Virus record (IMG/VR): IMGVR_UViG_3300036852_000288
Location: 1-25,956 of that record
Direction: 5' to 3' (one strand)
Source of the DNA: a virus
Length of the DNA stretch: 25,956 nt
Of the stretch, positions 3,523 to 20,663 are shown piece by piece. The notes under the pieces were generated by a model. It had not been told where the DNA came from. It was given only the letters and a program-made list of their open reading frames with translations, and searched no databases. Position 1 is the stretch's first letter; each line of letters starts with the position of its first letter. The position numbers and the translations under genes were made by a program.

Positions 3523-3896
3523 GGCGCAGCTACCTTGTACGCCTGGCACACCCACAATGCCGTGGCGGGATCGGTCTTCACGGCGCGCAGCTGATACCAC
3601 TGGCCCTCAAATTGAGCCTTGTCGTCCTTCCCCGGCTGAATACCGGCAGCAAGGCTTTGGGCAAAGACGTTGACGATGAGGTCGGTCTGCGGGATCCCCG
3701 CGCGAGCACGATAGGCATCGTCGTATTGGTCGGTGAAGCCCTCGCAGGGGTTCAGCGTCACAGCACCAGGAATCGGATCGCCATGAGCATCGACGCCGGC
3801 GGCCGCTTGCTGCCGCAGCGTCCCGGTCAAGAGCTTGCCCTTGAAGCCGGCAAAGATGGCCTTCGCGATCTGGCCGGTGAGCAGCGGGCCCGACAT
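3519..3896 (-). CDS. Neck/minor structural protein, probable head closure protein
   Basis: This 125-aa gene starts with ATG at 3896 inside the stop of the previous gene (TGATG). Its own stop overlaps the next GTG start. The protein starts MSGPLLTGQIAKAIFAGFKG, then has GAVTLNPCEGFTDQYDD, and ends in strands with QFEGQWYQLRAVKTDPATALW. Neck proteins that close the portal often have this size and a small beta-barrel character, and the position between capsid and gp10-like genes fits. I cannot name the family from motifs alone. Confidence 0.6.
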   Translation of the reverse strand: MSGPLLTGQIAKAIFAGFKGKLLTGTLRQQAAAGVDAHGDPIPGAVTLNPCEGFTDQYDDAYRARAGIPQTDLIVNVFAQSLAAGIQPGKDDKAQFEGQWYQLRAVKTDPATALWVCQAYKVAAP

Positions 3897-4534
3897 CAGT
3901 TCGCCAGCGCCTCGTCGATGCGCCGCTGCAGTTCATCGGCTTTCCAGCCGTTGAAAGGCTTCTTGCCTAGCAATGCGGTGTAATCGGCCCGCAGCTTTGC
4001 GATGTCGGGAGCGACTGCCCCGCCCTTTTTCCCGTTACCGTCATGGTCGAGCGGATCACTCTTGGGCTCGGCATTGCTGGAGGGCGTGGTGTCGGCCGGA
4101 TCGGCCCCGGCATCGCTCGGGACAGTGGCCAGCAGGCGGTCGAGTTCCGCGCGGAGAAGCGCTTCGCGATCGTCGTTCGGAAGCTCGTTCCACTCCTCGA
4201 CCGTCATGCCGGAAAGCTCATGCGCCGCGGCAACGATCGCGCCCAGCTGCACGGTCTCGCCGGCGATCTCGTAGGTAGAGGCCAGAACGCTCGATCCGAT
4301 GAGCATCTCGTCGTTCTGCTCGCCGGGATTCTCCGGGAGCGCGCCGGGCTTGTCGACGCCCGCAAGCATGATGCGGTGCGCCTCGAAGAGCTGGCGCAGC
4401 TTTCGGGTCGGTACCAGTGTCTTGTCGAACGGCGCGCCGGCGTTGAACGTCGTGCCGCAGATCGTCAGAGGACGCCGAAAGACCACGAAGTCTTTGTCGC
4501 GCTCAAAGGAATGCCGCCAGATCGCTCGGGCCAT
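3896..4534 (-). CDS. Phage protein after the capsid gene, with acidic linker and SAP-like C-terminus
   Basis: This 212-aa protein begins MARAIWRHSFERDKDFVVFRRP at an ATG at 4534. Residues about 1-125 form one region. A low-complexity Ala/Asp/Pro/Ser linker with DPLDHDGNGKKGG follows at about 140-175. The last 35 residues (IAKLRADYTALLGKKPFNGWKADELQRRIDEAL) resemble a helix-extension-helix, SAP- or LEM-like fold, often used to bind nucleic acid. Genes at this position, directly after the capsid, often encode head-tail connectors, and several have a helix-turn-helix end of this kind. The exact role is not recognised. Confidence 0.6.
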   Translation of the reverse strand: MARAIWRHSFERDKDFVVFRRPLTICGTTFNAGAPFDKTLVPTRKLRQLFEAHRIMLAGVDKPGALPENPGEQNDEMLIGSSVLASTYEIAGETVQLGAIVAAAHELSGMTVEEWNELPNDDREALLRAELDRLLATVPSDAGADPADTTPSSNAEPKSDPLDHDGNGKKGGAVAPDIAKLRADYTALLGKKPFNGWKADELQRRIDEALAN

Positions 4535-6800: not shown

Positions 6801-7448
6801 GGGAGTCTCCTTTTTGCCGATGTGATCGCCGGCAGAAGCGCCGGCAGCGATGAGCTCGGTGAGCTCGGCTTCAACCGCGGGGATCTTCTCCCGCACGGCA
6901 TTCAGGAATTCCTCGACGGAGTTGCGCGTCATCAGCATGCGCGCGTCGGCGGAAAGGCTGGCGTCACCCAGGATGGAGGTGACCGAGTCCTGCATGGAGC
7001 TGAACAGCGGCCAGAGTTCTTCCTGGACCTCGCTGAACCGTGTCGAGCGGATACGCTCGGCCATGAAGTCCCCGAAGGGTTTGGCGCCGTCGGCCGGATC
7101 GATCCAGCGCTTGGCGATGACCTCGATCGTCGCGTCGAGTTTCTTCACTTCCCAATCCTCAGGGAGCGAGTCGACGGCGTCGAGGGCGCGAGCCCGGGCA
7201 ATGATGTGCTTCTTGGCAGCATCCTTGTCCTTGGCGCGGCCGTAGGCCTCTACGGCGTTCTTGAGATCGGCCGTGGTCGCGATCGGGAACGAGCCGTCAG
7301 GCATTGCCGCACCGCTCTCGGCCAGGCGCTCGCGCTCCTCGGCCGTGAAGTCGCGCTTCATGATCGTCATCCTGGCACCCTTCTGCGCCGGCCGATCGAC
7401 CGCGCTGATTTCCATGATGGAGAAGTCCTCCATGACCCGCTTAGGCAT
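6126..7448 (-). CDS. Scaffold-bearing head protein with a protease-end motif at its N-terminus
   Basis: This 440-aa protein starts with ATG at 7448 and overlaps the stop of the protease gene by eight bases. Residues about 7-25 (EDFSIMEISAVDRPAQKGA) are the motif that normally ends an HK97-type or XkdF prohead protease ('..EiSaVd.PAn.gA'). Residues about 30-215 contain helical segments. Residues about 217-440 are a highly charged coiled-coil region, with a DVKKVADLEKQVADLNSRL heptad-like start, typical of scaffolding proteins. The scaffold directs capsid assembly and is then removed or cleaved. A strong internal ribosome binding site before Met217 suggests that the scaffold half is also made alone. 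It may be joined to the protease by frameshifting; see findings. Confidence 0.75.
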   Translation of the reverse strand: MPKRVMEDFSIMEISAVDRPAQKGARMTIMKRDFTAEERERLAESGAAMPDGSFPIATTADLKNAVEAYGRAKDKDAAKKHIIARARALDAVDSLPEDWEVKKLDATIEVIAKRWIDPADGAKPFGDFMAERIRSTRFSEVQEELWPLFSSMQDSVTSILGDASLSADARMLMTRNSVEEFLNAVREKIPAVEAELTELIAAGASAGDHIGKKETPMPDDVKKVADLEKQVADLNSRLTNILTMSKADRDHLDELEGDEKEKYLRMSPEERKAKVKKSTEDNPVVFKSADGTEFRKSDDPRLVDMAKRADESDKIAKDERDKREMSDLTKRASDEFGHLPGTPVAKAAILKAMGTMTEEVRKDLEGILKAAEKMVASGFAMKGVMDGSTADTSSPEAQLKKRAEEIQKAESISYEKAYSKAMEQNPDLYAQITTPAATQP

Positions 7449-8307
7449 CGGCCAACTCCCTGTCCTTGATGCGCCGGCCGCCGATCGAGAACCCCGTGTA
7501 GGTGCCGTCCTTGAACTTGCTCAGGATCTCGGCATTGTCGGGCTTCATCGCGATCATGAGGCCGGTCTGCTTGGTTTCGATGCCCATCGCCTTCGCGATG
7601 TCGGCGGTCATGGGCCAGGCGAAGACGACCGAGCCCTTCTCGTCGCCGGCGTGCATCTCCTTGGCGACACGACTGTTCGCCATGAAGTCCGCGGCGGCCT
7701 TCAGCATGGCGCCCTCGGGGATATGGTCCCCCTGGGTGTCGTAATAGTCCTTGCCCTCGGCCTTGCAGACGATGGCCCAGCCGAAGACGAGGCCGAGGCC
7801 TTCGTCGACCTTGAAGACCATGGCGTCGCCCTGGAATTCGCCCTTCATGACGTTCGTCTCCGGATCGAGGTCCTTGAAGCGGACCTCCGCTTCGTCGTCG
7901 CCCTTCAGCCAAGCCGCGGTGAGCCGGTGATGTCCGTCCGCGATCCAGAGGCGGTCGTTGATCTTGACCACCACAGGCAGTTTGCCGCCCGTGACGCCCT
8001 TTGCCGCAATCGCTTCCACCTTGGCGGTGTCGACGCGGTTCTGCATGGCGGTGAGCTCGTCGAGCTTCACCGACTTGGCGGGGAGTTGCTCTGAATCGGT
8101 CAGCGCGCCGAAGAAGCGCGGCACCTGGTCCTCGCGGAGGGAGCCGAGGGTATTGCCCTCATAGGCGAACGGGGTCTTCGAGCGCTCGGTGTCGAGGGGC
8201 TCCAGTGCCCGAGCAGCGAGCTTCTCCAGGTCATCCTTCTTGGGCTTCTTGCGCGCGGCCCAATCGGTGCCGTCGACATGGACCGCGGCGGCGGATGGCT
8301 CGCTCAT
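7441..8307 (-). CDS. ParB-like domain fused to XkdF-type prohead protease
   Basis: I place the start at the ATG at 8307, overlapping the MuF gene stop as ATGA, which gives 288 residues. An ATG at 8355 is possible but overlaps MuF more. Residues about 80-145 look like a ParB/sulfiredoxin-type domain: PVVVKINDRLWIADGHHRL with a DGHHR motif and a following helix. Residues about 172-288 match the XkdF putative serine protease: VFGWAIV, YDTQGDHIPEGAML, a conserved histidine in KEMHAG (about 219) and a serine in TGFSIGG (about 274). The protease would process capsid and scaffold during maturation. Its usual last motif (EISAVDRPA) is missing here and is instead encoded at the start of the next gene, in the +1 frame. 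Confidence 0.8.
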   Translation of the reverse strand: MSEPSAAAVHVDGTDWAARKKPKKDDLEKLAARALEPLDTERSKTPFAYEGNTLGSLREDQVPRFFGALTDSEQLPAKSVKLDELTAMQNRVDTAKVEAIAAKGVTGGKLPVVVKINDRLWIADGHHRLTAAWLKGDDEAEVRFKDLDPETNVMKGEFQGDAMVFKVDEGLGLVFGWAIVCKAEGKDYYDTQGDHIPEGAMLKAAADFMANSRVAKEMHAGDEKGSVVFAWPMTADIAKAMGIETKQTGLMIAMKPDNAEILSKFKDGTYTGFSIGGRRIKDRELADA

Positions 8308-9332
8308 TGCTGCCCCTCGGGCTTGTGAATTCGGTGCACTGCCACGCAGCGGCACATGATTGTCTCTGATCCCGGCGCCTCAGGATCACCCGGGTAGCGC
8401 AGCCTTGCGCCGCTCGGGCTCGTGAAGCGCTCCTCCATCCCGACCGCCTGCCCGTCCATCAGCCGATGCGTATGGCGGACCCGATTGTCTCTCGTGGAGC
8501 GCCAAACCCGCTCGACCAGCTCGGCGTCGATACCGGTGTCCTCTAGCGTCTGCTGCAGGGCTTCCTGCCGAGCCTGACCGACAACCCTCGTGGTTTCGGT
8601 CCGCGCGATAGTCTCTGCTCGATAGGCGACGTAGTGCTCGCGATATCGAGACACCATGCGATCGATCTGCGCGGCCTTCAGCGGCTCGCCGGTGCGATCC
8701 GCACGTTCAACCGTCCGATCGAAGCGCCGGTCCCGCAGATCGCGATCCAGGGCCTCAGCGCTACCGGCTTCGAGCAGCCGGCGATAGTTGTGCACCGCCG
8801 CTTCCTGGCTCGCTGTAAGCCCGAGAGCGTTCCTGAAGGCCCGCGCCATCTGCCGCGGCCCCGCGCCCTCCAGGAGCCCTTCGGTGAGCGCCTGGCGGAT
8901 CGCCTCCCGCTGGCTGGCGGCAATCTCCCGGATGAACTGCAACTGCGCGCTGCGCATCAGCGCCGCCGCCCGCTCGTTCACCGGGTCGAAGCTGATCCCC
9001 GTCGAGGGTGCCCAGCTTCTCACCTGATCGGCCAGGACCGACACCTCTGTCCGACCGGCGAGGATGAAGACCTCTGACAGAACCGACGCCATCCGGGCAA
9101 TGTAGCGGTCGACCACGGCAAGAGCGGCCTCGACATCGCCGCGGCCGAGGAAGTCGGCGACCTCGCGCAGCACCTCATCGCTCTGGATTGTCTGCACAAA
9201 GCGCAGGAAGGCCCGCTTGACGCTGCGCTCCAGCCCGCGGACCAGGCGCTCTATGCGCTCGACCTCCGGCGATTTCTTCTTGGCGAAGATCGTCGCTGTC
9301 GGGTATCGAATACCCGATGCTTCAAGTTGCAT
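8304..9332 (-). CDS. MuF-like (SPP1 gp7) minor head protein
   Basis: This 342-aa protein starts with ATG at 9332 with a GAGG ribosome binding site. The first 225 residues are largely helical and Arg/Glu-rich. The C-terminal MuF domain is clear from about residue 235: ARTETTRVVGQARQEAL, then RVWRSTRDNRVRHTHRLMDG, ERFTSPSGARLRYPGD and the end motif IMCRCVAV. MuF/gp7 proteins are minor capsid proteins near the portal, present in a few copies and often ejected with DNA. The gene overlaps the protease gene by four bases, and its start overlaps the start of a small plus-strand gene. Confidence 0.88.
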   Translation of the reverse strand: MQLEASGIRYPTATIFAKKKSPEVERIERLVRGLERSVKRAFLRFVQTIQSDEVLREVADFLGRGDVEAALAVVDRYIARMASVLSEVFILAGRTEVSVLADQVRSWAPSTGISFDPVNERAAALMRSAQLQFIREIAASQREAIRQALTEGLLEGAGPRQMARAFRNALGLTASQEAAVHNYRRLLEAGSAEALDRDLRDRRFDRTVERADRTGEPLKAAQIDRMVSRYREHYVAYRAETIARTETTRVVGQARQEALQQTLEDTGIDAELVERVWRSTRDNRVRHTHRLMDGQAVGMEERFTSPSGARLRYPGDPEAPGSETIMCRCVAVHRIHKPEGQQ

Positions 9333-11751: not shown

Positions 11752-13974
11752 TCAGGCCACCCGGTAAAGCGTGTAGGCGTTTGCCGCAGTGCGACGGGCG
11801 CGGAACTTGGCAGCACTGCGATTTCCAACCGCGCTGCCGTCCTGAACCACCATCTGGCCCGAGAGCGTCCAGCCCGCGGCCGTGGCAAGGGTGATCGTGA
11901 AGGCCGCAGCCCCGAGGTTGATGACGTTGAAGTCGAACGCATCCCCCACTGCGAGGCCGGGATGCGCAGCAAGCAACGCGGCTTCCAGCGCGGTGCCCAG
12001 AGGCAGCGTATAGACCGCGGCAGCAACCGGCGTGCCGACGATGAGCCCGGTCAGCAGTTCCGCTGCCGTGAGCGGGCCGGTGCCGGTCGTGGCGGTCGGC
12101 GCCGGCTGCGGGAAGACCGGAGAGTCCACGTAATCCTTGGTGACGAGCGACTTGGCCGCCGCCGGCACATAGGTCGCGCTCTCAGCGAGCAGTTGGCCGT
12201 CGCTGCGAATGCGGAAGAGGATCGGCGGGGCTTCGTTGTTGTTGTTGGGCCGGGCGCCCATCACCAGGTCGCCGCGCGTGTTCGTGGTGGTGCTGGTCTC
12301 CTGGTATCCCATCACCGCCGGATACTGGTTCCCCAATGCCGCGATGTAGCCGAAGCCGATGAGACGATACGAGTTTGCGTTCCACTCGCCACCGCCGATG
12401 CCGAGGTAGGTCGCCGCGATGCCGAAGGTCGTCGGCGCATCATTCTGCGTTCCCGGGATCTTCATCGCGAGGCGGGCTTTGATCCCCGCTACGTTCTGAA
12501 TGACGTCGATTTCGGCGCTGGACAGGGCACCCCCGGCGCCCCTGATGCGGAACAGCTCATTCGAGGCCGCTGGGCCCGTCGCCGCATAGAACACATGGTC
12601 GAGCGTCGTAGCGTTTCCCTGGTAGCGCATGACGTTCGCAGTGACGCCGAAGCCATCAAACTGATGATCGTTGTTAGCTCCCTCGAACATGACGATCTTG
12701 CGGTTAACCAGCGCGTTAGAAAACTGGAGCGGAGCGTGCGGCGTCTGCGTGCCGATGCCCAATCCTGCCGCGAGTAACGTCGCCTTGCTGACGCCGCCGA
12801 CGGACCAATCCTGCTGGGTAACAGCGCCAGCAACGCGGTCGATGCCCCAAGCTTCGGAAGCTACGCTGCCCGCGTCGTTGATGGCCCGGAAGGCGATACG
12901 GTTGGCGGTGGCCAGCCAGTTCCACTTCTTGGCGTCAGCCCCGCCGGCCGTGTGCGATATCTCGAGCACGGGCGATGTGCTGGCGATGCTTACTGATGGA
13001 TCGGCCGATCCGCCCACATGGGAGAAGATGTGCTTGGCGGTCCAGGTCGGCGCGATCGCCGGATTGATCGCCGGTGCGCCATCCGAGCGCATGAAGGTGG
13101 CCGCCACGCCGTTGATCGCGGCCATGCCGGCCAGCGCGGAGGGGTTCGCGCCCCCTGCCCCGAACTCGCCGGTATCGACCCAGTTCGCCAGCGTCGTAGC
13201 AGGATCCGCTGTCAGGTAAAACACATGCGGGGGATTGAAGTCGGTACGGATGCACACCGCCGGCGCCGTGACAACGAGCGCCAGCATTTCAGCCTGCGTC
13301 GCGGCCCTGCCGACGTCGTGGTCGAGAGGAGGAAGCTCACTCGCCGATATCTTGCCGCTGCCGTCAAGCGAGGCGACGCCTCCGGCGGCTCCCTTCTGGG
13401 TCAACGGGATGGCGGTGGCGACCAGCGCGTCGACATACTTCTTGTCGGTCAGGGATTGGTTGGTGGACGGGACATACGCGGGGTCCTCAGCCACGATCTG
13501 GCCGTCCAAACCGGTGACGCGGAATTTGACTGTCGGCGCCGTGTCCGTCGCAACTGCGCGTGTCGCAACGATGAAGTCGCCATAGGACTGCCCAGAGGTC
13601 TCCTTCTCTTCCATGCCGACCCAGACCGGCGAGTGCTGCGCCATGCTCTGGACGTAACCAAAGCCGATGCCACGCTTGCCGTTCAGGGAGAACTCACGGC
13701 CTCCGATGAACAGGTACGTCGTGTCGGGCCCGATGTCGGTCGGCTGGTTGTTGTGGCCGGTGCCGCTGTTGTACCGGGCGAGCCACAACTTGCCGGTTGC
13801 GTTGCTGTCCAGAATGGTCAGCGGACCGGTCATCGTGTCGCCGGTCTTGGAGACGCCGCCGCCAGCGACAATCAGGTCGGCAATGGACGCAACCTGACGG
13901 TTCTTCTGCGCGTTGGGCAGCTTCCGGCGCTGCTGAGGCCGATAGACCTCAATCAGGTATGTCGAGTCGACCAT
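11752..13974 (-). CDS. Fibre protein with an internally duplicated module
   Basis: This 740-aa protein is a receptor-binding or head-fibre type protein. Near the N-terminus is VSKTGDTMTGPLTI (about 41-54), a motif common in phage fibres. Residues about 85-183 and 522-617 are two copies of one module. Both have TYL.IGG.E, then IGFGY, a GDF/GDL strand, P..F.., DGQ..AE, TYVP-like and SL..K.YVD. The C-terminal domain (about 632-740) has PLTAAELLTG, YTLPLGTALEAALLA, FDFNVINLG and ends AYTLYRVA, resembling C-terminal beta domains of other phage fibres or decoration proteins. The gene lies between portal and MuF genes, an unusual place for a tail fibre, so a head- or neck-attached fibre is possible. 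Confidence 0.8.
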   Translation of the reverse strand: MVDSTYLIEVYRPQQRRKLPNAQKNRQVASIADLIVAGGGVSKTGDTMTGPLTILDSNATGKLWLARYNSGTGHNNQPTDIGPDTTYLFIGGREFSLNGKRGIGFGYVQSMAQHSPVWVGMEEKETSGQSYGDFIVATRAVATDTAPTVKFRVTGLDGQIVAEDPAYVPSTNQSLTDKKYVDALVATAIPLTQKGAAGGVASLDGSGKISASELPPLDHDVGRAATQAEMLALVVTAPAVCIRTDFNPPHVFYLTADPATTLANWVDTGEFGAGGANPSALAGMAAINGVAATFMRSDGAPAINPAIAPTWTAKHIFSHVGGSADPSVSIASTSPVLEISHTAGGADAKKWNWLATANRIAFRAINDAGSVASEAWGIDRVAGAVTQQDWSVGGVSKATLLAAGLGIGTQTPHAPLQFSNALVNRKIVMFEGANNDHQFDGFGVTANVMRYQGNATTLDHVFYAATGPAASNELFRIRGAGGALSSAEIDVIQNVAGIKARLAMKIPGTQNDAPTTFGIAATYLGIGGGEWNANSYRLIGFGYIAALGNQYPAVMGYQETSTTTNTRGDLVMGARPNNNNEAPPILFRIRSDGQLLAESATYVPAAAKSLVTKDYVDSPVFPQPAPTATTGTGPLTAAELLTGLIVGTPVAAAVYTLPLGTALEAALLAAHPGLAVGDAFDFNVINLGAAAFTITLATAAGWTLSGQMVVQDGSAVGNRSAAKFRARRTAANAYTLYRVA

Positions 13975-14005
13975 TTGAAGTCTCCCATCAGCCTGCTCGG
14001 CTCAA

Positions 14006-14329
14006 TCAGTTCACGGCGTCGATGACCGCGACAACCACTGCGTAGTTCGCCACCGGCACCGCGATCGGCACCAGGACCTGGACGCCAACGACGTTGACGG
14101 CATTGAGCCGCGTCGCCTGGAGGGTGAAGCCAAGGGCTGTCCGGGCAACAAAGCTGATGCTGTTCATCCCGTTCGACCCGGGCACCGGCAGCACCATCGG
14201 CGGCTGACCGAACGGCGTCCCGAAGACTACCGACCAGCGGCCATCCGCCCCGGTTAGACCGCTGTAAAATTCATGGCGCCGCTCTACAAAGGGCTCAGGG
14301 GGCGCAGGGGTGGCGGGATAGAGCGGCAC
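14006..14329 (-). CDS. Small beta-rich phage protein, possible fibre-tip or lectin-like domain
   Basis: This 107-aa gene starts with GTG at 14329, directly after the stop of the previous gene. It begins with a Pro-rich stretch (MPLYPATPAPPEPFVERR), then GADGRWSVVFGTPFGQPPMVLPVPGSNGMN, ALGFTLQATRLNAVN and a hydrophobic end. The 'dGrwsv.F..pF..pP.v....' pattern resembles small beta-sandwich domains at phage tail-fibre tips. Resemblance is by eye only. It lies directly upstream of the 740-aa fibre gene. Confidence 0.6.
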   Translation of the reverse strand: MPLYPATPAPPEPFVERRHEFYSGLTGADGRWSVVFGTPFGQPPMVLPVPGSNGMNSISFVARTALGFTLQATRLNAVNVVGVQVLVPIAVPVANYAVVVAVIDAVN

Positions 14330-14674
14330 CTACCACTCCCGCGCCGAGAACGCCTGACCGGCCGTGCCGCCGATGATCGAGACCGGCCCTACGGAGACGC
14401 CGTGTGCTGGCGCCTCATAAAGCGCGCCGGCGGCGATCTTGATGCTCGGCTGGCCTTGGGTCGCTGCCCCGAGCTCGTTGATCCACAGATCGGCCTCGCC
14501 GAGGTTCTGCACCCAGAAGCCGCTGCGGTCGGCCCGCGCCGCCATCATCTCCTGAGCTTCGCCTGCTGACGTGATCGTGCCGCTGCAATCGACGGGGCTT
14601 GCCGAATACGCCCGAAACAAGTTCGTTATCGGCGGCTTCAACCCGTCGGAGATTTGGCGCAGCCAGGAGGTCAT
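14330..14674 (-). CDS. Small virion-associated protein downstream of the portal
   Basis: This 114-aa gene begins with ATG at 14674 inside the stop of the endonuclease gene (ATGA). The protein has an amphipathic start (MTSWLRQISDGLKPPITNLF), then DCSGTITSAGEAQEMM, GFWVQNLGEADLWINELG and a Gly-rich beta end. The 'tit..g.aq.l......r.g.w.qN.s..dLwin..G.A' pattern is one I associate with small phage capsid or fibre accessory proteins. Before the endonuclease arrived this gene probably followed the portal gene directly. Confidence 0.6.
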   Translation of the reverse strand: MTSWLRQISDGLKPPITNLFRAYSASPVDCSGTITSAGEAQEMMAARADRSGFWVQNLGEADLWINELGAATQGQPSIKIAAGALYEAPAHGVSVGPVSIIGGTAGQAFSAREW

Positions 14675-15432
14675 GGCCTGTCTTCAAGCAATTCAGCGCC
14701 GCTGTCGGGCGGCTGCGACAGGCCGAGCATTTCAGTGTCTAGCCGCGCCCATTTCTTCCCCTTGTTGATCAGGGAGATGGTGCTCGGGTGAACTCCGAAG
14801 TCGGCCGCTATGGCCTTCTGCGCCTCACCAGTGGCAAGCCGGCGTCTGATCTCGCGCACGTCCTCGGGCTGCAACTTTGCCTGCGGATTGGCCGCCCCGG
14901 TCATGCGCGCCGATAATTCCTGCATCCGTATCGGGTCGCTGTTTCGCTCAGCCAGCATTGCCCGAAGGGCCGCCGTCCGCTTCTTCCGATACTCAGGATC
15001 TTTCCAGAGCCCTTGGAGCGGCTCAAGGCACTTGGCCCTGTACTCCGGGTCCTTCCAGCGCTCCCGAGACGTCTCAGATGCCCGGAGCAGCTTCGCCGGC
15101 TCTCGTATGCGCGCCACCATGGCAGCGTGCTCATGCTCCGTCCGCTCAGGAATACCCTCCCCGCCCCCGGTGAGGTTGTACCCTCCTGGAAAGCGTGTGC
15201 GGTGCTCTTCAATGGCTTCGCACTCTAGCCGGCAGAGGTCATCCCAATTGTCGGAGCGCGCCAGCACGTCAATCTGCACCGCATCGACGCCATACTTCTT
15301 GATGGCGTTCGAGATGGCGTAGTTGCGGCTGCGGCCGTAGTAGTGGTGCCTGAGGCGTTCTCGTGCCGTGCTCAGGGTGATGCCAATGTACGCCTTACCC
15401 GACGGGAAGGTCAGCTTGTACAGCTCCCCCAT
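14671..15432 (-). CDS. GIY-YIG homing endonuclease with portal-derived C-terminus
   Basis: This 253-aa protein starts with ATG at 15432 overlapping the portal stop (TGATG). Residues about 4-85 are a GIY-YIG nuclease domain: LYKLTFPSGKAYIGIT, a catalytic-type Arg in RERLRHH, and Glu in LECEAIEEH, then GGYNLTGGGEG. Two NUMOD3-like repeats (WKDPEYR) occur at about 126-132 and 143-149. A DNA-binding helix-turn-helix lies at about 188-230 (AQKAIAADFGVHPSTISLI). The last 21 residues (EMLGLSQPPDSGAELLEDRP with one residue before) copy the C-terminus of the portal protein. Such enzymes cut an allele lacking them and spread by repair. The copied tail marks the insertion point. Confidence 0.88.
   Translation of the reverse strand: MGELYKLTFPSGKAYIGITLSTARERLRHHYYGRSRNYAISNAIKKYGVDAVQIDVLARSDNWDDLCRLECEAIEEHRTRFPGGYNLTGGGEGIPERTEHEHAAMVARIREPAKLLRASETSRERWKDPEYRAKCLEPLQGLWKDPEYRKKRTAALRAMLAERNSDPIRMQELSARMTGAANPQAKLQPEDVREIRRRLATGEAQKAIAADFGVHPSTISLINKGKKWARLDTEMLGLSQPPDSGAELLEDRP
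14675..14730 (-). repeat. Imperfect direct repeat, copy 1 (end of endonuclease gene)
   Basis: This segment encodes EMLGLSQPPD..LLEDRP in the endonuclease frame. It is a diverged copy of 15439-15498 at the portal 3' end, with GGCCTGTCTT and CCGAGCAT shared at the two ends (plus-strand reading). It is probably the original portal 3' end, now serving as the endonuclease tail. Confidence 0.75.
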
Positions 15433-16826
15433 CAGGCGGGCCTGTCTTCCAAGAGATCACCGCCGCTTGTGTCGGGTGGTGCTGACAGACCGAGCATCTC
15501 TCTGACCTCAGATATCGCGGGATCATCAGGCGCGAGCACCGCCCCTGCCGTGGCCATATCCCGCAGCGTGGCCGAAACCTGCTCCACCGACATGAACGAC
15601 ACGTCCTCCGCGACCATTGTGGGCTTGAGGCGATCGTCGAAGCCATTCAGCGTCCAGAGCGCCCCGATCAGGTCGTGCCCGTACATCTCGCTCATGTCCG
15701 AGACGACGCCGTTCACCTGCAGGTAGAGGTTCTTGCTCTTGTCCTCGCTGAGGGCGCGGGATCCGGAGTTCTGACCGATGAGCAACTGCTCGATACCCAT
15801 CGCGCGGGCGATTTCATAGTTGGTCCGCTCGATCGCGGCGCCGAGGTACTCGATACCGGTCGATTGGCCCTGCAGCAGTTCCATGCCCCAGCGAAGGGTC
15901 GATGCCCACGAGTGACCGTCGGCCTGCAGGTTCTTGAACGGCTGGCTATCAAGCAGCAGGCCGGTATTCACGTCCTTGGCCTGCGTCTCGATGAAGCTCC
16001 GCATCGCCGCGATGGCCTGAGTGACCTTGTTCGCGAAGTCCGTGTCGCCGGGCCGATCGCGCACCGCCTGCTCGAGCTCGGCGATGGGGGCGCGGCCGAT
16101 GGGCGTTCCCCTCAAGTCCCGGTCGAAGCCGATGCCCTCGATCTTGAGATATTCCTTCAGCCGCTCCGCCGGCTCCGTCACCTGGCGGAGGATGCCCAAG
16201 CCTTCCGGGCTGTCGGACAGCGTGTCGTCGACGAGATAAACGAACTTCCAGCGCGGGATGTAGAACAGCTCGCCGGTCTGCGGTGAGCGCTGCACCACGC
16301 CTCGCACCCGACCATTTGCAGGGTCGATATCCCATTGCCAGATCGTGTGCTGCGGCCGCGCCTCGATGTTCTCAATCCCGACCAGCCCATCGGGCCGCTT
16401 CTTGGCCTGCCATTCCTGAATGGAGAAGCCGTAGAAGCGGTACATCCCCGAGCGACGGATGACCCGGCGCCAGGAGACCTCCATGTCGGTCATGACGTGC
16501 TCGACGAACTCGGCATGCGCCTTTGCCTCGTCCGAGGACTCTCCGTCCGGAAGGTCCTTTGCCGGGCTGACCGTCCAGGCGGGCTTGGTCACCAGCCCGA
16601 GGAAGTACCGGATGCCGGCCGCCACGATCGAGGTGTTGACCATGATGTCCGAGAAGGTCTCGTACCGGTTGTAGCCGGCGACCTTTTGATTGCGCTCGAC
16701 GTTCTGGACGAACCCGCCATAGACGGCGGTGCCGGAGACGCCGGCCTCCTTGTAGGGGCTGACGCGCGGCTTGTTCTCGAACCCGATCAGGCTGAACAGG
16801 TTCGTCATGAAGCTCGGCGTGGGCAT
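15432..16826 (-). CDS. Portal protein
   Basis: This 464-aa protein forms the ring through which DNA enters and leaves the capsid. It follows the large terminase gene by ten bases, as expected. Recognisable parts are SIVAAGIRYFLGLVTKPAW near residue 70, GFSIQEWQAKKRPDG, LFYIPRWKFVYLVDD, and AERLKEYLKIEGIGFDRDL. A long helix and NYEIARAMGIEQLLIGQNSGSRAL follow. These resemble the DUF935/Mu gp29-like portal family. The acidic C-terminus (LLEDRPA) is duplicated at the end of the following endonuclease gene. Start ATG at 16826. Confidence 0.85.
   Translation of the reverse strand: MPTPSFMTNLFSLIGFENKPRVSPYKEAGVSGTAVYGGFVQNVERNQKVAGYNRYETFSDIMVNTSIVAAGIRYFLGLVTKPAWTVSPAKDLPDGESSDEAKAHAEFVEHVMTDMEVSWRRVIRRSGMYRFYGFSIQEWQAKKRPDGLVGIENIEARPQHTIWQWDIDPANGRVRGVVQRSPQTGELFYIPRWKFVYLVDDTLSDSPEGLGILRQVTEPAERLKEYLKIEGIGFDRDLRGTPIGRAPIAELEQAVRDRPGDTDFANKVTQAIAAMRSFIETQAKDVNTGLLLDSQPFKNLQADGHSWASTLRWGMELLQGQSTGIEYLGAAIERTNYEIARAMGIEQLLIGQNSGSRALSEDKSKNLYLQVNGVVSDMSEMYGHDLIGALWTLNGFDDRLKPTMVAEDVSFMSVEQVSATLRDMATAGAVLAPDDPAISEVREMLGLSAPPDTSGGDLLEDRPA
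15439..15498 (-). repeat. Imperfect direct repeat, copy 2 (end of portal gene)
   Basis: This segment encodes EMLGLSAPPDTSGGDLLEDRP in the portal frame and pairs with the copy at 14675-14730. The repeats flank the endonuclease gene. The base changes and small length differences between copies suggest that this one came in with the endonuclease from a related phage. Confidence 0.75.
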
Positions 16827-16836
16827 GCGACAGCGC

Positions 16837-18438
16837 CTAGTTTGTTAGCGGGACGGTGATCGGAGCGCCGATGCCGGCGAAGCCGTCACCGGACCTGTCG
16901 CGCACGAGCCGCCCGAAAGCGCCGCTCGAGGCGTCGACCTGGTCCTTGAAGCTGCCGCCGGGGAACAGGCACAGCTCGTCGATGTAGTCCGAGTTCCACT
17001 CGCCCTCGACGAGGTAGACGTTGCCGGCCTCACACTGCACCGCGAAGGGTTCGGCCCGAGTGTACTTGTCGCCGGTTTCGGGCTGCGCTCGGGCGATATA
17101 CCCCGCCATCATCGCCACGAGATCCTTGCTCTGCACCTTGCCGGCCTGCCCAGGGTCCTGAGGGAAGCTGATTTCGACGCTCTTGCCGTCGACCTCGGCC
17201 GTCGCCTTGATCAGCTTGCGGACCTCGTTGCCTTCATCCTGCGTCTTGACGGCGTGCCCGACCACGTAGCGGCCGTCAGGAGTCTTGCCGAGCTTTACGC
17301 CCGCGGTACGGGCGGCCTTCTTGTCCTTGGTGGCGGCCAAATCCCAGTGCCGCACCCATCGGGTGCCTTCTGGCGCCCGACTGATGATCTTGCCCTCGAA
17401 CCATTCCCGCTTGAACAAGCCACCTTCGCGCGGCGTCGGGCGCTGCTGATACTGGCCCGCCCATGCATAGTCGCCTTTGGCCTTCTTCAGCCGGGCGAGC
17501 TCGGCCGGCGGGAAGCGCTCGGGGAATAGCAACTCGCCATCCACCGTGCGGGGGTCCTCGAAGAACAGTTCGCCGTCGACATAGGTCCGACAGGGTCCGC
17601 CCGTCCTTCTGCCCTGGTCATCGATCTGCTCGGCCTCGAACTCCATCGGGAGGTTGAGGTGGGTGAACCCGATGTCCAATTCCATCGCCACCGCGGCGAC
17701 GTCCTGGCTGTGTAGGCGCTGCATGATGATGACGATCACCGACGACATGCCGTCGTTGAGGCGGTCGGTGATGCCCTCGCGAAAGGTGCGGATCGTCGTT
17801 GCGCGCTCGGCGTCACTTTCGGCCGTCTCGGTCGAATGCGGATCGTCAATCTTGACCCGGTCGCCTCGGCCGCCGGTCATGGACTTGAACGGCCGAGCCT
17901 CGCTGAAACCGTTGCCGGTGTTCTCGAACTTGCCCTTCGCGTTCTGATCGTCGCGGAGGTCGAGCTTCCAGATCGCCTGGAACTTGTCGCTCTCGACAAG
18001 CCGACGCAGCTTGAGGTTGTCGCGCAGGACGTTCGGCTGGCTGTAGGACGTCGCCAGAACCTGCAGATCCGGGCGCCCGCGCGGACCCCACTCCCAAGCG
18101 GTCCAGAAGACCATCAGGAGCGACTTCATCATGCCGGGCGGCACGGTCATCAGCAGGAACTGGATGAGCCCGGCCGAGACCGCTTCCAGATGCCGGCACA
18201 TGGCGCGAAGCGCCCAGCCCATCTTCAGTTCACGGACGGGCTCGAGGATGGGCCAGAATTCAACAATGAAGCCTTCCAGCGTCTCGCATCGCGCCCGGAT
18301 GCGTTCGGCATCCTGGGCGATACGCTGACGCTCGATCTCAGTTGCCCGCCTCGCCTTCTCCTCTCGGATCAGCCGCATCATCGTCGCCGGCGAGGGCAAG
18401 CGGCCCGAAGAGGGCTTCAAGAGCGGCGAGTTGCTCAT
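16837..18438 (-). CDS. Terminase large subunit
   Basis: This 533-aa protein packages DNA by ATP hydrolysis and cuts the concatemer. Visible motifs are Walker A VPPGMMKS (about 99-106), Walker B region RVKIDDPHS (about 194-202), a coupling strand SVIVIIMQRLH (about 233-243), and GDYAWAGQYQQRP (about 322-334). The RNase H-like nuclease has acidic residues in RHWDLAATKD (about 366), PQDPGQ (about 428) and FKDQVDASS (about 499-502). The ATG at 18438 overlaps the small subunit gene by about 100 bases. Met20/Met21 at 18381-18384 could be the true start, but no better ribosome site is seen there. Confidence 0.93.
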   Translation of the reverse strand: MSNSPLLKPSSGRLPSPATMMRLIREEKARRATEIERQRIAQDAERIRARCETLEGFIVEFWPILEPVRELKMGWALRAMCRHLEAVSAGLIQFLLMTVPPGMMKSLLMVFWTAWEWGPRGRPDLQVLATSYSQPNVLRDNLKLRRLVESDKFQAIWKLDLRDDQNAKGKFENTGNGFSEARPFKSMTGGRGDRVKIDDPHSTETAESDAERATTIRTFREGITDRLNDGMSSVIVIIMQRLHSQDVAAVAMELDIGFTHLNLPMEFEAEQIDDQGRRTGGPCRTYVDGELFFEDPRTVDGELLFPERFPPAELARLKKAKGDYAWAGQYQQRPTPREGGLFKREWFEGKIISRAPEGTRWVRHWDLAATKDKKAARTAGVKLGKTPDGRYVVGHAVKTQDEGNEVRKLIKATAEVDGKSVEISFPQDPGQAGKVQSKDLVAMMAGYIARAQPETGDKYTRAEPFAVQCEAGNVYLVEGEWNSDYIDELCLFPGGSFKDQVDASSGAFGRLVRDRSGDGFAGIGAPITVPLTN

Positions 18439-18950: not shown

Positions 18951-19625
18951 ATGACGAAGACCCAGACCACCAAGACGACAGCGAAGACCGCCCCGAAGGC
19001 CGACGCCAAGACTGCCAAGCCCGCGGGCGAGAAGGCGGCGAAGCCGGTTAAGAAGGTTGCGACCTCGCTTCAGCCGATGCCGATGGCCGAGATGGTCAAG
19101 ATCATCGGCTCCGCGAAGGAGTTCACGACCTACATCGTCGCCAAGGGCCTGAAGCTGTTCAACAGCTACCCGACCCTTGCCGAGGCGGCGAAGGCGGCGG
19201 ACAGCCTGCAGAAGACCCACAAGAAGGCGGTCCTCGTTTCGGCCATTGATGCCGAGAAGAAGGCCACCACCATCCCCGAGGGCGTGTGGCGGTCAGCGGC
19301 CCGCAAGATCGGCCCGGCGCCGGCACTCAAGGCCGAGGAGCTTACCCCGGCCGCAAAGGCCGCCAAGAAGGCCGCAAGCCCGCAGGGCAAGCGCGCTGAG
19401 GTACTTGCCGCCGCCGAGAAGGGCGTCCTGCCCGCCGCGCCGGATTTCAGCGCCGAGACGCACAAGCGTTTCCGCCCGAAGCTGGCCGAGGTGGTCGCCT
19501 TGGTCGAGAAGGGCGACGTGAAGGCCCTGAAGGCCTTCCCGATCAACCCGGTATCGAGCAGCCCGAAGGCGCTAGCGAAGTATCGGGACCTCGCGGTGAT
19601 TGCCCTCGAGGCGAAGGCCGCCTAA
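18951..19625 (+). CDS. Lysine/alanine-rich basic protein, possibly DNA-associated
   Basis: This 224-aa gene is on the plus strand, with an excellent AAAGGAG ribosome binding site before the ATG at 18951. The first 40 residues are almost all Lys, Thr and Ala (MTKTQTTKTTAKTAPKADAK and onward), like the tails of histone H1-like bacterial proteins. A folded part begins near residue 41 with PMAEMVKIIGSAKEFTTYIV, followed by helical Ala/Lys segments to the end. There is no signal peptide. I do not recognise the family; binding to DNA is inferred from charge. It forms its own transcription unit, divergent from the packaging genes and closed by a clear terminator at 19653-19677. Confidence 0.75.
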   Translation: MTKTQTTKTTAKTAPKADAKTAKPAGEKAAKPVKKVATSLQPMPMAEMVKIIGSAKEFTTYIVAKGLKLFNSYPTLAEAAKAADSLQKTHKKAVLVSAIDAEKKATTIPEGVWRSAARKIGPAPALKAEELTPAAKAAKKAASPQGKRAEVLAAAEKGVLPAAPDFSAETHKRFRPKLAEVVALVEKGDVKALKAFPINPVSSSPKALAKYRDLAVIALEAKAA

Positions 19626-20311
19626 GCCGGCCCCAGCACATTCCAGAAAAGGACGCGCCCCTCGCGGGCGCGTTTTTGCATGCACACGTCCCACGCCTTG
19701 GCGTCGTAGTGCCAATCCGAGGGGAACGGCGGCTGTTGCCGGGCCCGATGGCCGAAGGGCTTAGGGTAGACGAAGATCTCCGCCCCTACAGCGGCAACCG
19801 CCCGACCGACCTCCACGATGCACAGCCGGGCATTCGGCCAGGCCATCTTCAGCCCCGAGGCGAGCACGCCCGAGCCGCCGGCACACCAGACCTCGTCGGG
19901 CAGTTCCCGCGTCGATCGAGCCGCTTCCGCGATCGCAACCGATGCCCCGGGCACCTTCATGCCGAAGGGCGCCAGCCTGGCGCCGGTCGCCGCGCAATAG
20001 TCTTCGGCGCGCTTTTGCACCACGTTGAGATAGCCGGGCTCGACCTGCACGATCGTGGCGCCGAACTTCTTCGCCATCAGGACGCGGGGATGCGGCGTCT
20101 CCCGCTTGGCCACGAAGATGGTCGCCCTCTTGCCGAGCTGCTGCGCGACGAAGGCCAGGGACGTCTGTGCCCCGCCTTCCTGCGGGGAGGCGTAGACGAC
20201 CTCTCCGACTTCATCGAATAGTTTCGGCAGGTACCGGGCCTTGGTCCCGCCGGCGAAGAGATCGTCGCGGACGACCGCGATTCCGTCGTGTTCCTGCACA
20301 ATCGGTCGCAT
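19622..20311 (-). CDS. PLP-dependent (tryptophan synthase beta/ACC deaminase-like fold) enzyme
   Basis: I choose the ATG at 20311 (229 aa), which avoids overlap with the divergent Rap1a-like gene; an ATG at 20350 would add 13 residues. The protein begins RPIVQEHDGIAVVRDDLFAGGTKARYL. The Lys in GGTK (about 24) matches the PLP-binding lysine of GGNK in D-cysteine desulfhydrase and ACC deaminase. ASPQEGGAQTSLAFVAQQLGKRATIFV then matches their 'GG.qSNh' substrate loop and following helix. A glycine-rich CAGGSGVLASG could bind the cofactor phosphate. It is shorter than the roughly 330-residue family members, lacking much of the second domain. The substrate is unknown; the neighbours suggest a DNA-related task. 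An opposing terminator lies within its last codons. Confidence 0.75.
   Translation of the reverse strand: MRPIVQEHDGIAVVRDDLFAGGTKARYLPKLFDEVGEVVYASPQEGGAQTSLAFVAQQLGKRATIFVAKRETPHPRVLMAKKFGATIVQVEPGYLNVVQKRAEDYCAATGARLAPFGMKVPGASVAIAEAARSTRELPDEVWCAGGSGVLASGLKMAWPNARLCIVEVGRAVAAVGAEIFVYPKPFGHRARQQPPFPSDWHYDAKAWDVCMQKRAREGRVLFWNVLGPA
19653..19677 (+). terminator. Intrinsic terminator of the 224-aa gene, inside the PLP gene
   Basis: ACGCGCCC, loop CTCGC and GGGCGCGT form a perfect 8-bp stem ending in five T residues (19673-19677) on the plus strand. An AAAA run on the other side (19647-19650) gives it some bidirectional character. It lies 28 bases after the stop of the plus gene and inside the last 20 or so codons of the opposing PLP gene. 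Confidence 0.8.
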
Positions 20312-20348
20312 GCTACCGTCTGTTTGTGAACGAGCGAGAGGACGCTCC

Positions 20349-20663
20349 ATGAAACGCTATGCTGCAGTTGTCCTGCTGATGCTGGCACCCTCGGCCGCCT
20401 CGGGCGGCTACTACGAGACGGGCAACGACATCTACGACGGCTGTACGACCAAGCAGCAGGTGGGCTTCTGCCTGGCATACGCTGCTGGGATCGCCGACGC
20501 CGCATACTTCACGCCCATGAGCGGCATCTGCATCCCGTTGGGGGTCCAGCTTAGCCAGGTCCGTGATGTGATGGTCGGCTATCTGGACGAACACCCGGAA
20601 ACCCGACACGAGCCCGCGTACTATCTCGTCAATCGGGCTCTTATCGAGGCCTGGCCCTGCTAG
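20349..20663 (+). CDS. Secreted Rap1a/Tai family-like protein (immunity-type moron)
   Basis: This 104-aa gene reads on the plus strand between two minus-strand phage genes. The ATG at 20349 has GAGAGG upstream; earlier in-frame ATGs lie in the PLP gene and have no signal sequence. A Sec signal peptide is clear (MKRYAAVVLLMLAPSAASG). The mature part shows the Rap1a/Tai pattern: GNDIYDGC, FCLAYAAGIADA, ICIPLGVQLSQVRDVMVGYL, HPETRHEPAYYLVNRAL and a terminal PC. Four cysteines (about 32, 41, 61, 104) fit two disulfides. Family members studied in Serratia are periplasmic immunity proteins against type VI amidase effectors. In a phage it could protect the lysogen or block rivals; this is inference. 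Confidence 0.8.
   Translation: MKRYAAVVLLMLAPSAASGGYYETGNDIYDGCTTKQQVGFCLAYAAGIADAAYFTPMSGICIPLGVQLSQVRDVMVGYLDEHPETRHEPAYYLVNRALIEAWPC

Follow-up and report, generated by a model that had tools for sequence, protein, structure and literature searches.

A phage homing endonuclease gene carries a copy of the neighbouring portal C-terminus and probably records a replaced gene tail

Introduction

How can a free-standing homing endonuclease gene (HEG) enter an essential gene without killing the phage? The question is raised by the virus record IMGVR_UViG_3300036852_000288, in which the C-terminal end of a portal protein recurs at the end of the endonuclease encoded behind it. The first-pass annotation of this DNA had proposed that the endonuclease entered the 3' end of the portal gene, brought along a replacement tail and took over the old tail as its own C-terminus. 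Here, we ask whether the likeness is real, which of the two tails is native to the portal, and whether the arrangement recurs at other HEG loci.

Results

The portal and endonuclease locus

All genes under discussion are located on the minus strand of the window, by which we mean the whole record of 25,956 bases. The features are as follows:

15432-16826, minus strand: portal gene, Mu-like/DUF935 portal of 464 amino acids, the target of the HEG (Pfam Portal_Mu, E=1.9e-14)
15435-15530, minus strand: putative foreign replacement tail of the portal, codons 433-464 (GC3 changepoint and third-base identity against contig L003)
15435-15500, minus strand: upstream copy of the duplicated tail, EMLGLSAPPDTSGGDLLEDRPA (alignment with the HEG tail)
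15430-15434, minus strand: TGATG stop/start overlap of portal and HEG (stop TGA and start ATG with one base in common)
14671-15432, minus strand: GIY-YIG HEG of 253 amino acids (phrog_314, 1mk0, Foldseek)
15157-15432, minus strand: GIY-YIG catalytic domain, HEG residues 1-92 (Y5, Y15, G17, R26, E70 and N86 invariant in relatives)
14773-14877, minus strand: C-terminal helix-turn-helix DNA-binding domain, HEG residues 186-220 (Pfam HTH_38, E=1.6e-6)
14674-14733, minus strand: putative old (native) portal tail, now HEG residues 234-253 (begins where HEG relatives end; low pLDDT)
14671-14674, minus strand: ATGA overlap of the HEG stop and the start of the next gene (sequence)
14330-14674, minus strand: next gene, 114 amino acids, phrog_22789 (absent from HEG-free relatives)
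14006-14329, minus strand: second small gene, 107 amino acids, phrog_17509 (absent from HEG-free relatives)
11752-13974, minus strand: tail/fibre-like gene (homologue directly after the portal in contigs L003, L004 and L005)

The start-stop overlaps that had been reported at both junctions are thus present, TGATG between the portal and the HEG and ATGA between the HEG and the next gene. The window portal matched 830 phage records, and the 114-amino acid gene behind the HEG had only four matches in the phage collection, all of them weak.

Some other features of the window may be recorded here. The tail/fibre-like gene contains an internal repeat, in which residues 510-620 are 39% identical to its own N-terminal part. 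A pyridoxal-phosphate-dependent enzyme (19622-20350, minus strand; Pfam PALP, E=2.8e-11) is encoded between the terminase and DNA-methylase/ParB-like genes, and a capsid-protease-like protein (7441-8355, minus strand; Peptidase_S78_2, E=1.2e-9) has an N-terminal stretch that is weakly ParB-like/VapB-like and is possibly a fusion.

The endonuclease and its C-terminal addition

The 253-amino acid protein matches the homing endonuclease family phrog_314 (E=3.4e-25) and, by profile, the catalytic domain of I-TevI, 1mk0 (E=2e-6). The best Foldseek matches of its structural model are 1ln0 and 1mk0 (probability 1.00, E about 0.01, approximately 95 alignment columns), with a target TM score of 0.74 for 1ln0. 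The GIY-YIG Pfam model itself did not match the window HEG at E<=0.1; the core residues Y5, Y15, G17, R26, E70 and N86 are invariant among 13 sequences. By these sequence and model matches, the protein is an I-TevI-like GIY-YIG homing endonuclease. The alignment to phrog_20467 stops at residue 234, and the HEG relatives in L131 and L114 end shortly past the same helix-turn-helix. Since the relatives end at about the residue where the portal-like tail begins, the tail is an addition to an otherwise ordinary HEG. Consistently, the model is poorly determined over this stretch (pLDDT 38-51), which it depicts as a low-confidence appendage.

Related enzymes are found near other portals. In the Yuavirus L106 (Pseudomonas phage LKO4) and its relatives, a related GIY-YIG HEG (about 40% identical over 60% of the query) is located just downstream of the portal region, with a TGATG overlap and without a tail copy. 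In a related portal cluster, L056 encodes a GIY-YIG HEG (3692-4285) between a 188-amino acid gene ending in DLGKLA and a 126-amino acid gene; this HEG ends in RWGKL and its overlap with the upstream gene is TGATG, as in the window. L056 may have a very short tail copy, one that is not significant by itself; it was not counted as a tail-copy case, as GKL alone is common to the two tails and about 0.3% of random pairs are likewise matched.

The portal tail is present in two copies

The portal ends in EVREMLGLSAPPDTSGGDLLEDRPA before its stop codon, with the duplicated part EMLGLSAPPDTSGGDLLEDRPA, and the HEG ends in DTEMLGLSQPPDSGAELLEDRP, with the duplicated part EMLGLSQPPDSGAELLEDRP. The portal tail (about 15500-15435) and the HEG tail (about 14733-14674) are 77% identical in nucleotides and 85% in amino acids over 20 aligned codons with one codon gap, and a self-search of the window matched the last 20 or so residues of the HEG to the portal tail at 81% identity. 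The two tails differ mostly at third bases, with 17 of 20 residues kept against about 11 under random changes, although choosing the pairs by protein similarity biases this test toward kept residues.

To place the likeness against a background, GIY-YIG HEG loci from IMG/VR were combined with two related loci from phage records into a survey of 125 unique loci, at each of which the tail of the upstream gene was compared with the HEG end and the DNA just after it, with mismatched loci as the null. The same-locus score of the window is 81, compared to a 99.9th percentile of 41 and a maximum of 47 for the cross-locus pairs. The copy of the portal tail at the end of the HEG is beyond chance, and both the likeness of the tails and the kinship of their DNA, as first reported, are real.

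Portals of relatives without the endonuclease

Relatives without the endonuclease, against which the first-pass annotation had proposed to compare the portal ends, do exist. The IMG/VR contigs L003, L004 and L005 encode portals that are 78, 74 and 65% identical to the window portal over their length, and in each of them the homologue of the tail/fibre-like gene comes immediately after the portal, while the HEG and both small genes are absent. The portal of L003 ends in EMLGLSAPPQDDAGPLVGDRTG and keeps the EMLGLSAPP tail motif. The more general motif E(V/I)R..LGLS is common in the portals of this family, which indicates that the HEG tail is truly derived from a portal. The ending LLEDRP is found in 0 of 80 related portals.

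As L003, the closest of the HEG-free relatives, is only 78% identical and lacks both small genes, it does not represent a clean empty site. When IMG/VR was searched with the tail motif as a DNA pattern, the only contig recovered was L003, and neither a donor nor a closer empty site was found. No portal with the present window tail was found in IMG/VR or in the phage collection, and the plasmids contained no useful portal relative. The donor lineage of the inserted tail may be unsampled.

Which of the two window tails looks foreign

The GC3 of the portal gene has a changepoint at codon 432/433, with values of 0.887 before and 0.5625 after it (permutation p=0.0015). The drop over the last 32 codons is 0.324, compared to a mean of 0.07 (sd 0.10) in the 80 related portals, only one of which has a drop above that of the window; the drop in L005 is 0.24. 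The GC3 of the HEG tail, 0.67, is also below that of the portal body. The first-pass annotation had further suggested comparing the divergence of the portal tail with that of the body, and the tail is indeed the more divergent at third bases: the identity to L003 is 0.62 (267/430) in the body versus 0.31-0.32 (10/32) in the tail (Fisher p=0.001). The HEG-borne tail, with a third-base identity to L003 of 0.55 (11/20), does not differ from the portal body.

When the end of the L003 portal is compared with both copies, short tails of 20-32 codons, the outcome is thus divided: third positions favor the copy in the HEG, whereas the amino acid identities are equal (59% for the portal tail and 60% for the HEG tail). 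From composition and third positions, the last 32 or so codons of the portal (PDDPAISEVREMLGLSAPPDTSGGDLLEDRPA) look foreign and the copy in the HEG (PPDSGAELLEDRP) looks native. On the evidence from the window alone, the case for a foreign portal tail is good but not decisive, because both copies are equally near L003 at the amino acid level.

Tail copies at other endonuclease loci

Five cases beyond the window were identified in the survey (L163, L202, L250, L258 and L234), all in unrelated genes. Scores of at least 65 were obtained for the same-locus pairs of the window, L258, L234 and L250, versus 0 of 15,500 cross pairs. The remaining two of the six cases rest on short matches: in L163, where the target is a neck/tail-completion-like protein, KGSVKPLP is common to the gene tail and the HEG end (cross-pair frequency 0.0009), and in L202, where the upstream gene is RNA polymerase beta-like, the match is a tail of four residues only, the terminal LAPK, although no mismatched pair has four terminal residues alike. 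In the window and L163, the HEG reading frame runs on through the leftover tail; in L258, L234 and L250, the leftover tail occupies a different frame and is located at the HEG end or immediately behind it. L181, L266 and L135 were rejected as cases due to weak scores and unconvincing alignments. The copy is absent at most of the surveyed GIY-YIG HEG loci and was found at 0 of 13 further GIY-YIG loci from phage records, so that it represents a minority pattern, at roughly 5% of the loci.

The composition of two of these loci points in the same direction as in the window. In L163, GC3 is about 0.10 in the last 21 or so codons of the gene, 0.69 in its body and 0.38 in the HEG, and the leftover DNA has a GC content of about 61%, like the rest of that phage. 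In L258, the values are 0.53 in the gene tail, 0.72 in the body, 0.49 in the HEG and 0.70 in the leftover. L234 is AT-rich throughout, and its composition is uninformative on direction. The L163 target gene has phage relatives, but these are too divergent to reveal how it originally ended; the target genes of L258, L234 and L250 had no match in the phage collection, but that of L250 has matches in IMG/VR.

In the 42 loci that were informative, the upstream gene shifts toward the composition of the HEG over its last 20 codons (p=0.001), and the shift persists in the 37 loci that remain without the known cases (still p=0.001). It may be due in part to GC3 declining at gene ends in general. In L130, L151, L125 and L222, the last 20 codons of the upstream gene drop sharply in GC3, to or below the HEG values, and no old tail is detectable. 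It is possible, from this composition, that these four are decayed cases of tail replacement.

A direction test in L250

The target gene in L250, of 153 amino acids, has relatives without a HEG in L281, L282 and L284, which allow the empty-site comparison that had been proposed for the portal. The body of the gene (117 codons) is 89% identical to L281 and 85% to L282. The tail presently on the gene is 44 and 39% identical in amino acids to L281 and L282, respectively, whereas the leftover behind the HEG is 83 and 86% identical to them; L284 gives the same order (33% for the present tail versus 51% for the leftover). The HEG-free relatives thus match the leftover and not the present tail. Judged by these alignments, the native tail of L250 is the leftover, and the gene presently carries a foreign one. 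A second HEG, 31% identical, is located upstream of an L250-type target gene in the same phage (L279/L280:3-521).

Discussion

Alternative explanations

The alternative that survives best is a local duplication, in which the portal's own tail was doubled when the HEG was inserted, by a staggered break or slippage, and the copies diverged later, with no other phage involved. Both copies are portal-like and nearer to each other (85% in amino acids) than either is to L003 (59-60%), as such a duplication would predict. However, the copies differ by 23% in their DNA, mostly at third positions, the foreign composition is found on the present gene tail and not on the leftover in four of the five long cases, and in L250 a local duplication is refuted, since the HEG-free relatives match the leftover only. 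We therefore consider it unlikely for the window.

Somewhat less probable still is that the HEG lineage has long possessed its tail, having acquired it from some other portal and independently of any former tail of this phage, in which case the tail of the window portal would be native. The EMLGLS motif is widespread in the portals of the family, so that the source could be another phage, but no other HEG in the 125-locus survey ends in an EMLGLS-type portal motif, and endonucleases of this type that carry the motif away from portals, which would have spoken against the first reading, were not seen. Moreover, the HEG tail is at least as near to L003 as the portal tail is, and nearer at third positions, and it is the portal tail that departs more from the portal body.

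Phage group I introns often carry GIY-YIG HEGs, and among the HEG matches in phage records there are several that interrupt terL or td. That the HEG belongs to an intron- or intein-like element, with the second tail as a downstream exon restored by splicing, is nevertheless very improbable here: the portal reading frame is complete, with its own stop before the HEG, two tails would be redundant, and a search of 13900-16900 for RNA families gave no credible family and no intron, only two matches far below the gathering scores, neither of them an intron. Finally, a chance or convergent likeness of the C-termini, or a reading artefact, is refuted by the in-register likeness of the DNA and by a score that no cross-locus pair reaches.

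A model for a probable replacement of the portal tail

We prefer the reading that a HEG cassette swapped the portal tail and that the old tail became the C-terminus of the HEG, and estimate its probability at about 0.8. The entry into the portal 3' end, the replacement tail and the reuse of the old one, as originally claimed, are supported by the relatives, the composition, the recurrence at other loci and the test in L250; the transfer from a donor in the window itself is what these patterns suggest. In the proposed scheme, a free-standing GIY-YIG HEG would travel between phages as a cassette composed of the 3' end of the target gene and the HEG. In the recipient, the enzyme would cut the portal gene close to its 3' end. 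Repair of the left side would rely on homology inside the portal, whereby the entire tail, together with a short piece upstream of the cut, is replaced by that of the donor, and the right side of the cassette would be joined to the cut end non-homologously, because the downstream DNA of the donor does not match the recipient. As the right side is joined without homology, the recipient's own tail would stay behind the HEG, where the old portal tail, being in frame, would become the last 20 residues of the HEG and still overlap the next gene. The cut would lie near the start of the duplicated segment, with the old tail beginning at the cut and marking it.

In each of the five long cases, the start of the putative foreign segment precedes the duplicated tail by about 4-12 codons. 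This offset is 10 codons in the window (433 versus 443), 7 in L163, about 12 in L258 and about 4 in L234, and up to 7 in L250 as judged by identity to the HEG-free relatives; the GC3 changepoints alone are weak in L250 (p=0.04) and L234 (p=0.08). A foreign start upstream of the duplication suggests that a cut was repaired with a short co-converted tract on its left side and joined without homology on its right.

Whether HEGs generally invade phages in this way, by replacing a gene tail, is, in our judgement, evenly balanced. If they do, the substitute 3' end would keep the gene working, its synonymous differences would resist recutting, the old tail would remain as a scar at the cut site, and the C-termini of essential proteins would be shuffled between lineages. 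Many further cases may escape notice because of decay of the old tail. The loci would thus record how a phage can survive the entry of a free-standing HEG into an essential gene: the cassette supplies a working 3' end, and the old one is left as a scar. Such a scar would predict the cut site of an uncharacterised enzyme to within about a dozen codons, so that target sites become testable from sequence alone, and the process would offer a route by which essential virion proteins gain C-termini from other phages.

Comparison with known systems

Free-standing GIY-YIG HEGs of phages, such as the Seg proteins of T4 and the I-TevI family, are similar to the window HEG in their I-TevI-like catalytic domain, their C-terminal DNA-binding domain, the conserved neighbor gene and their absence in relatives. 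A term search of the review on T4 mobile elements (PMC2988022) gave no tail replacement with a leftover tail. In T4 gene 39/60 (PMC5009743) and Aeh1 nrdA/mobE, whose overlap is mentioned in PMC2988022, a HEG likewise resides in a conserved gene whose function is kept by a compensating arrangement. However, the gene is split there, while here it is whole and capped with a substitute 3' end. Searches of the open-access literature, and term searches of the phage-HEG papers PMC2988022 and PMC10448857, gave no phage case of C-terminal replacement by a HEG; subscription papers were mostly outside this coverage, and priority is thus not certain.

The closest parallel is found in fungal mitochondria, where HEG cassettes replace the C-termini of atp6 in Allomyces macrogynus and of atp6, atp9, cox2 and nad3 in Glomus sp. 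(PMC3630166). In these hybrids, the C-terminus left behind the endonuclease is the native one and resembles that of relatives, whereas the inserted one has diverged, with numerous synonymous changes (PMC3630166). As in our loci, the HEG follows a chimeric gene with a cassette-borne C-terminus, and the element in Glomus atp9 is also of the GIY-YIG type. Two hallmarks of the mitochondrial cassettes recur here: a chimeric gene with an in-frame, putatively foreign tail followed by a HEG is seen in the window (p=0.0015), and a copy of the C-terminus after or inside the HEG 3' end in the window, L163, L250, L258 and L234, and by four residues in L202. The fungal cassettes differ in that they concern organelle genes and, in several instances, LAGLIDADG enzymes, whereas the targets here are genes of phages, for virion proteins among others, and start/stop overlaps are frequent at their junctions. 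In the window and L163, unlike in the fungal cassettes, the old tail appears to have been recruited, in frame, as the C-terminal end of the HEG. The scheme is thus known from fungal mitochondria, and the present loci would place it in phages. What seems new, with the above proviso on priority, is its occurrence in phage genes and with GIY-YIG enzymes, together with the reuse, in two cases, of the old tail as the C-terminus of the HEG itself.
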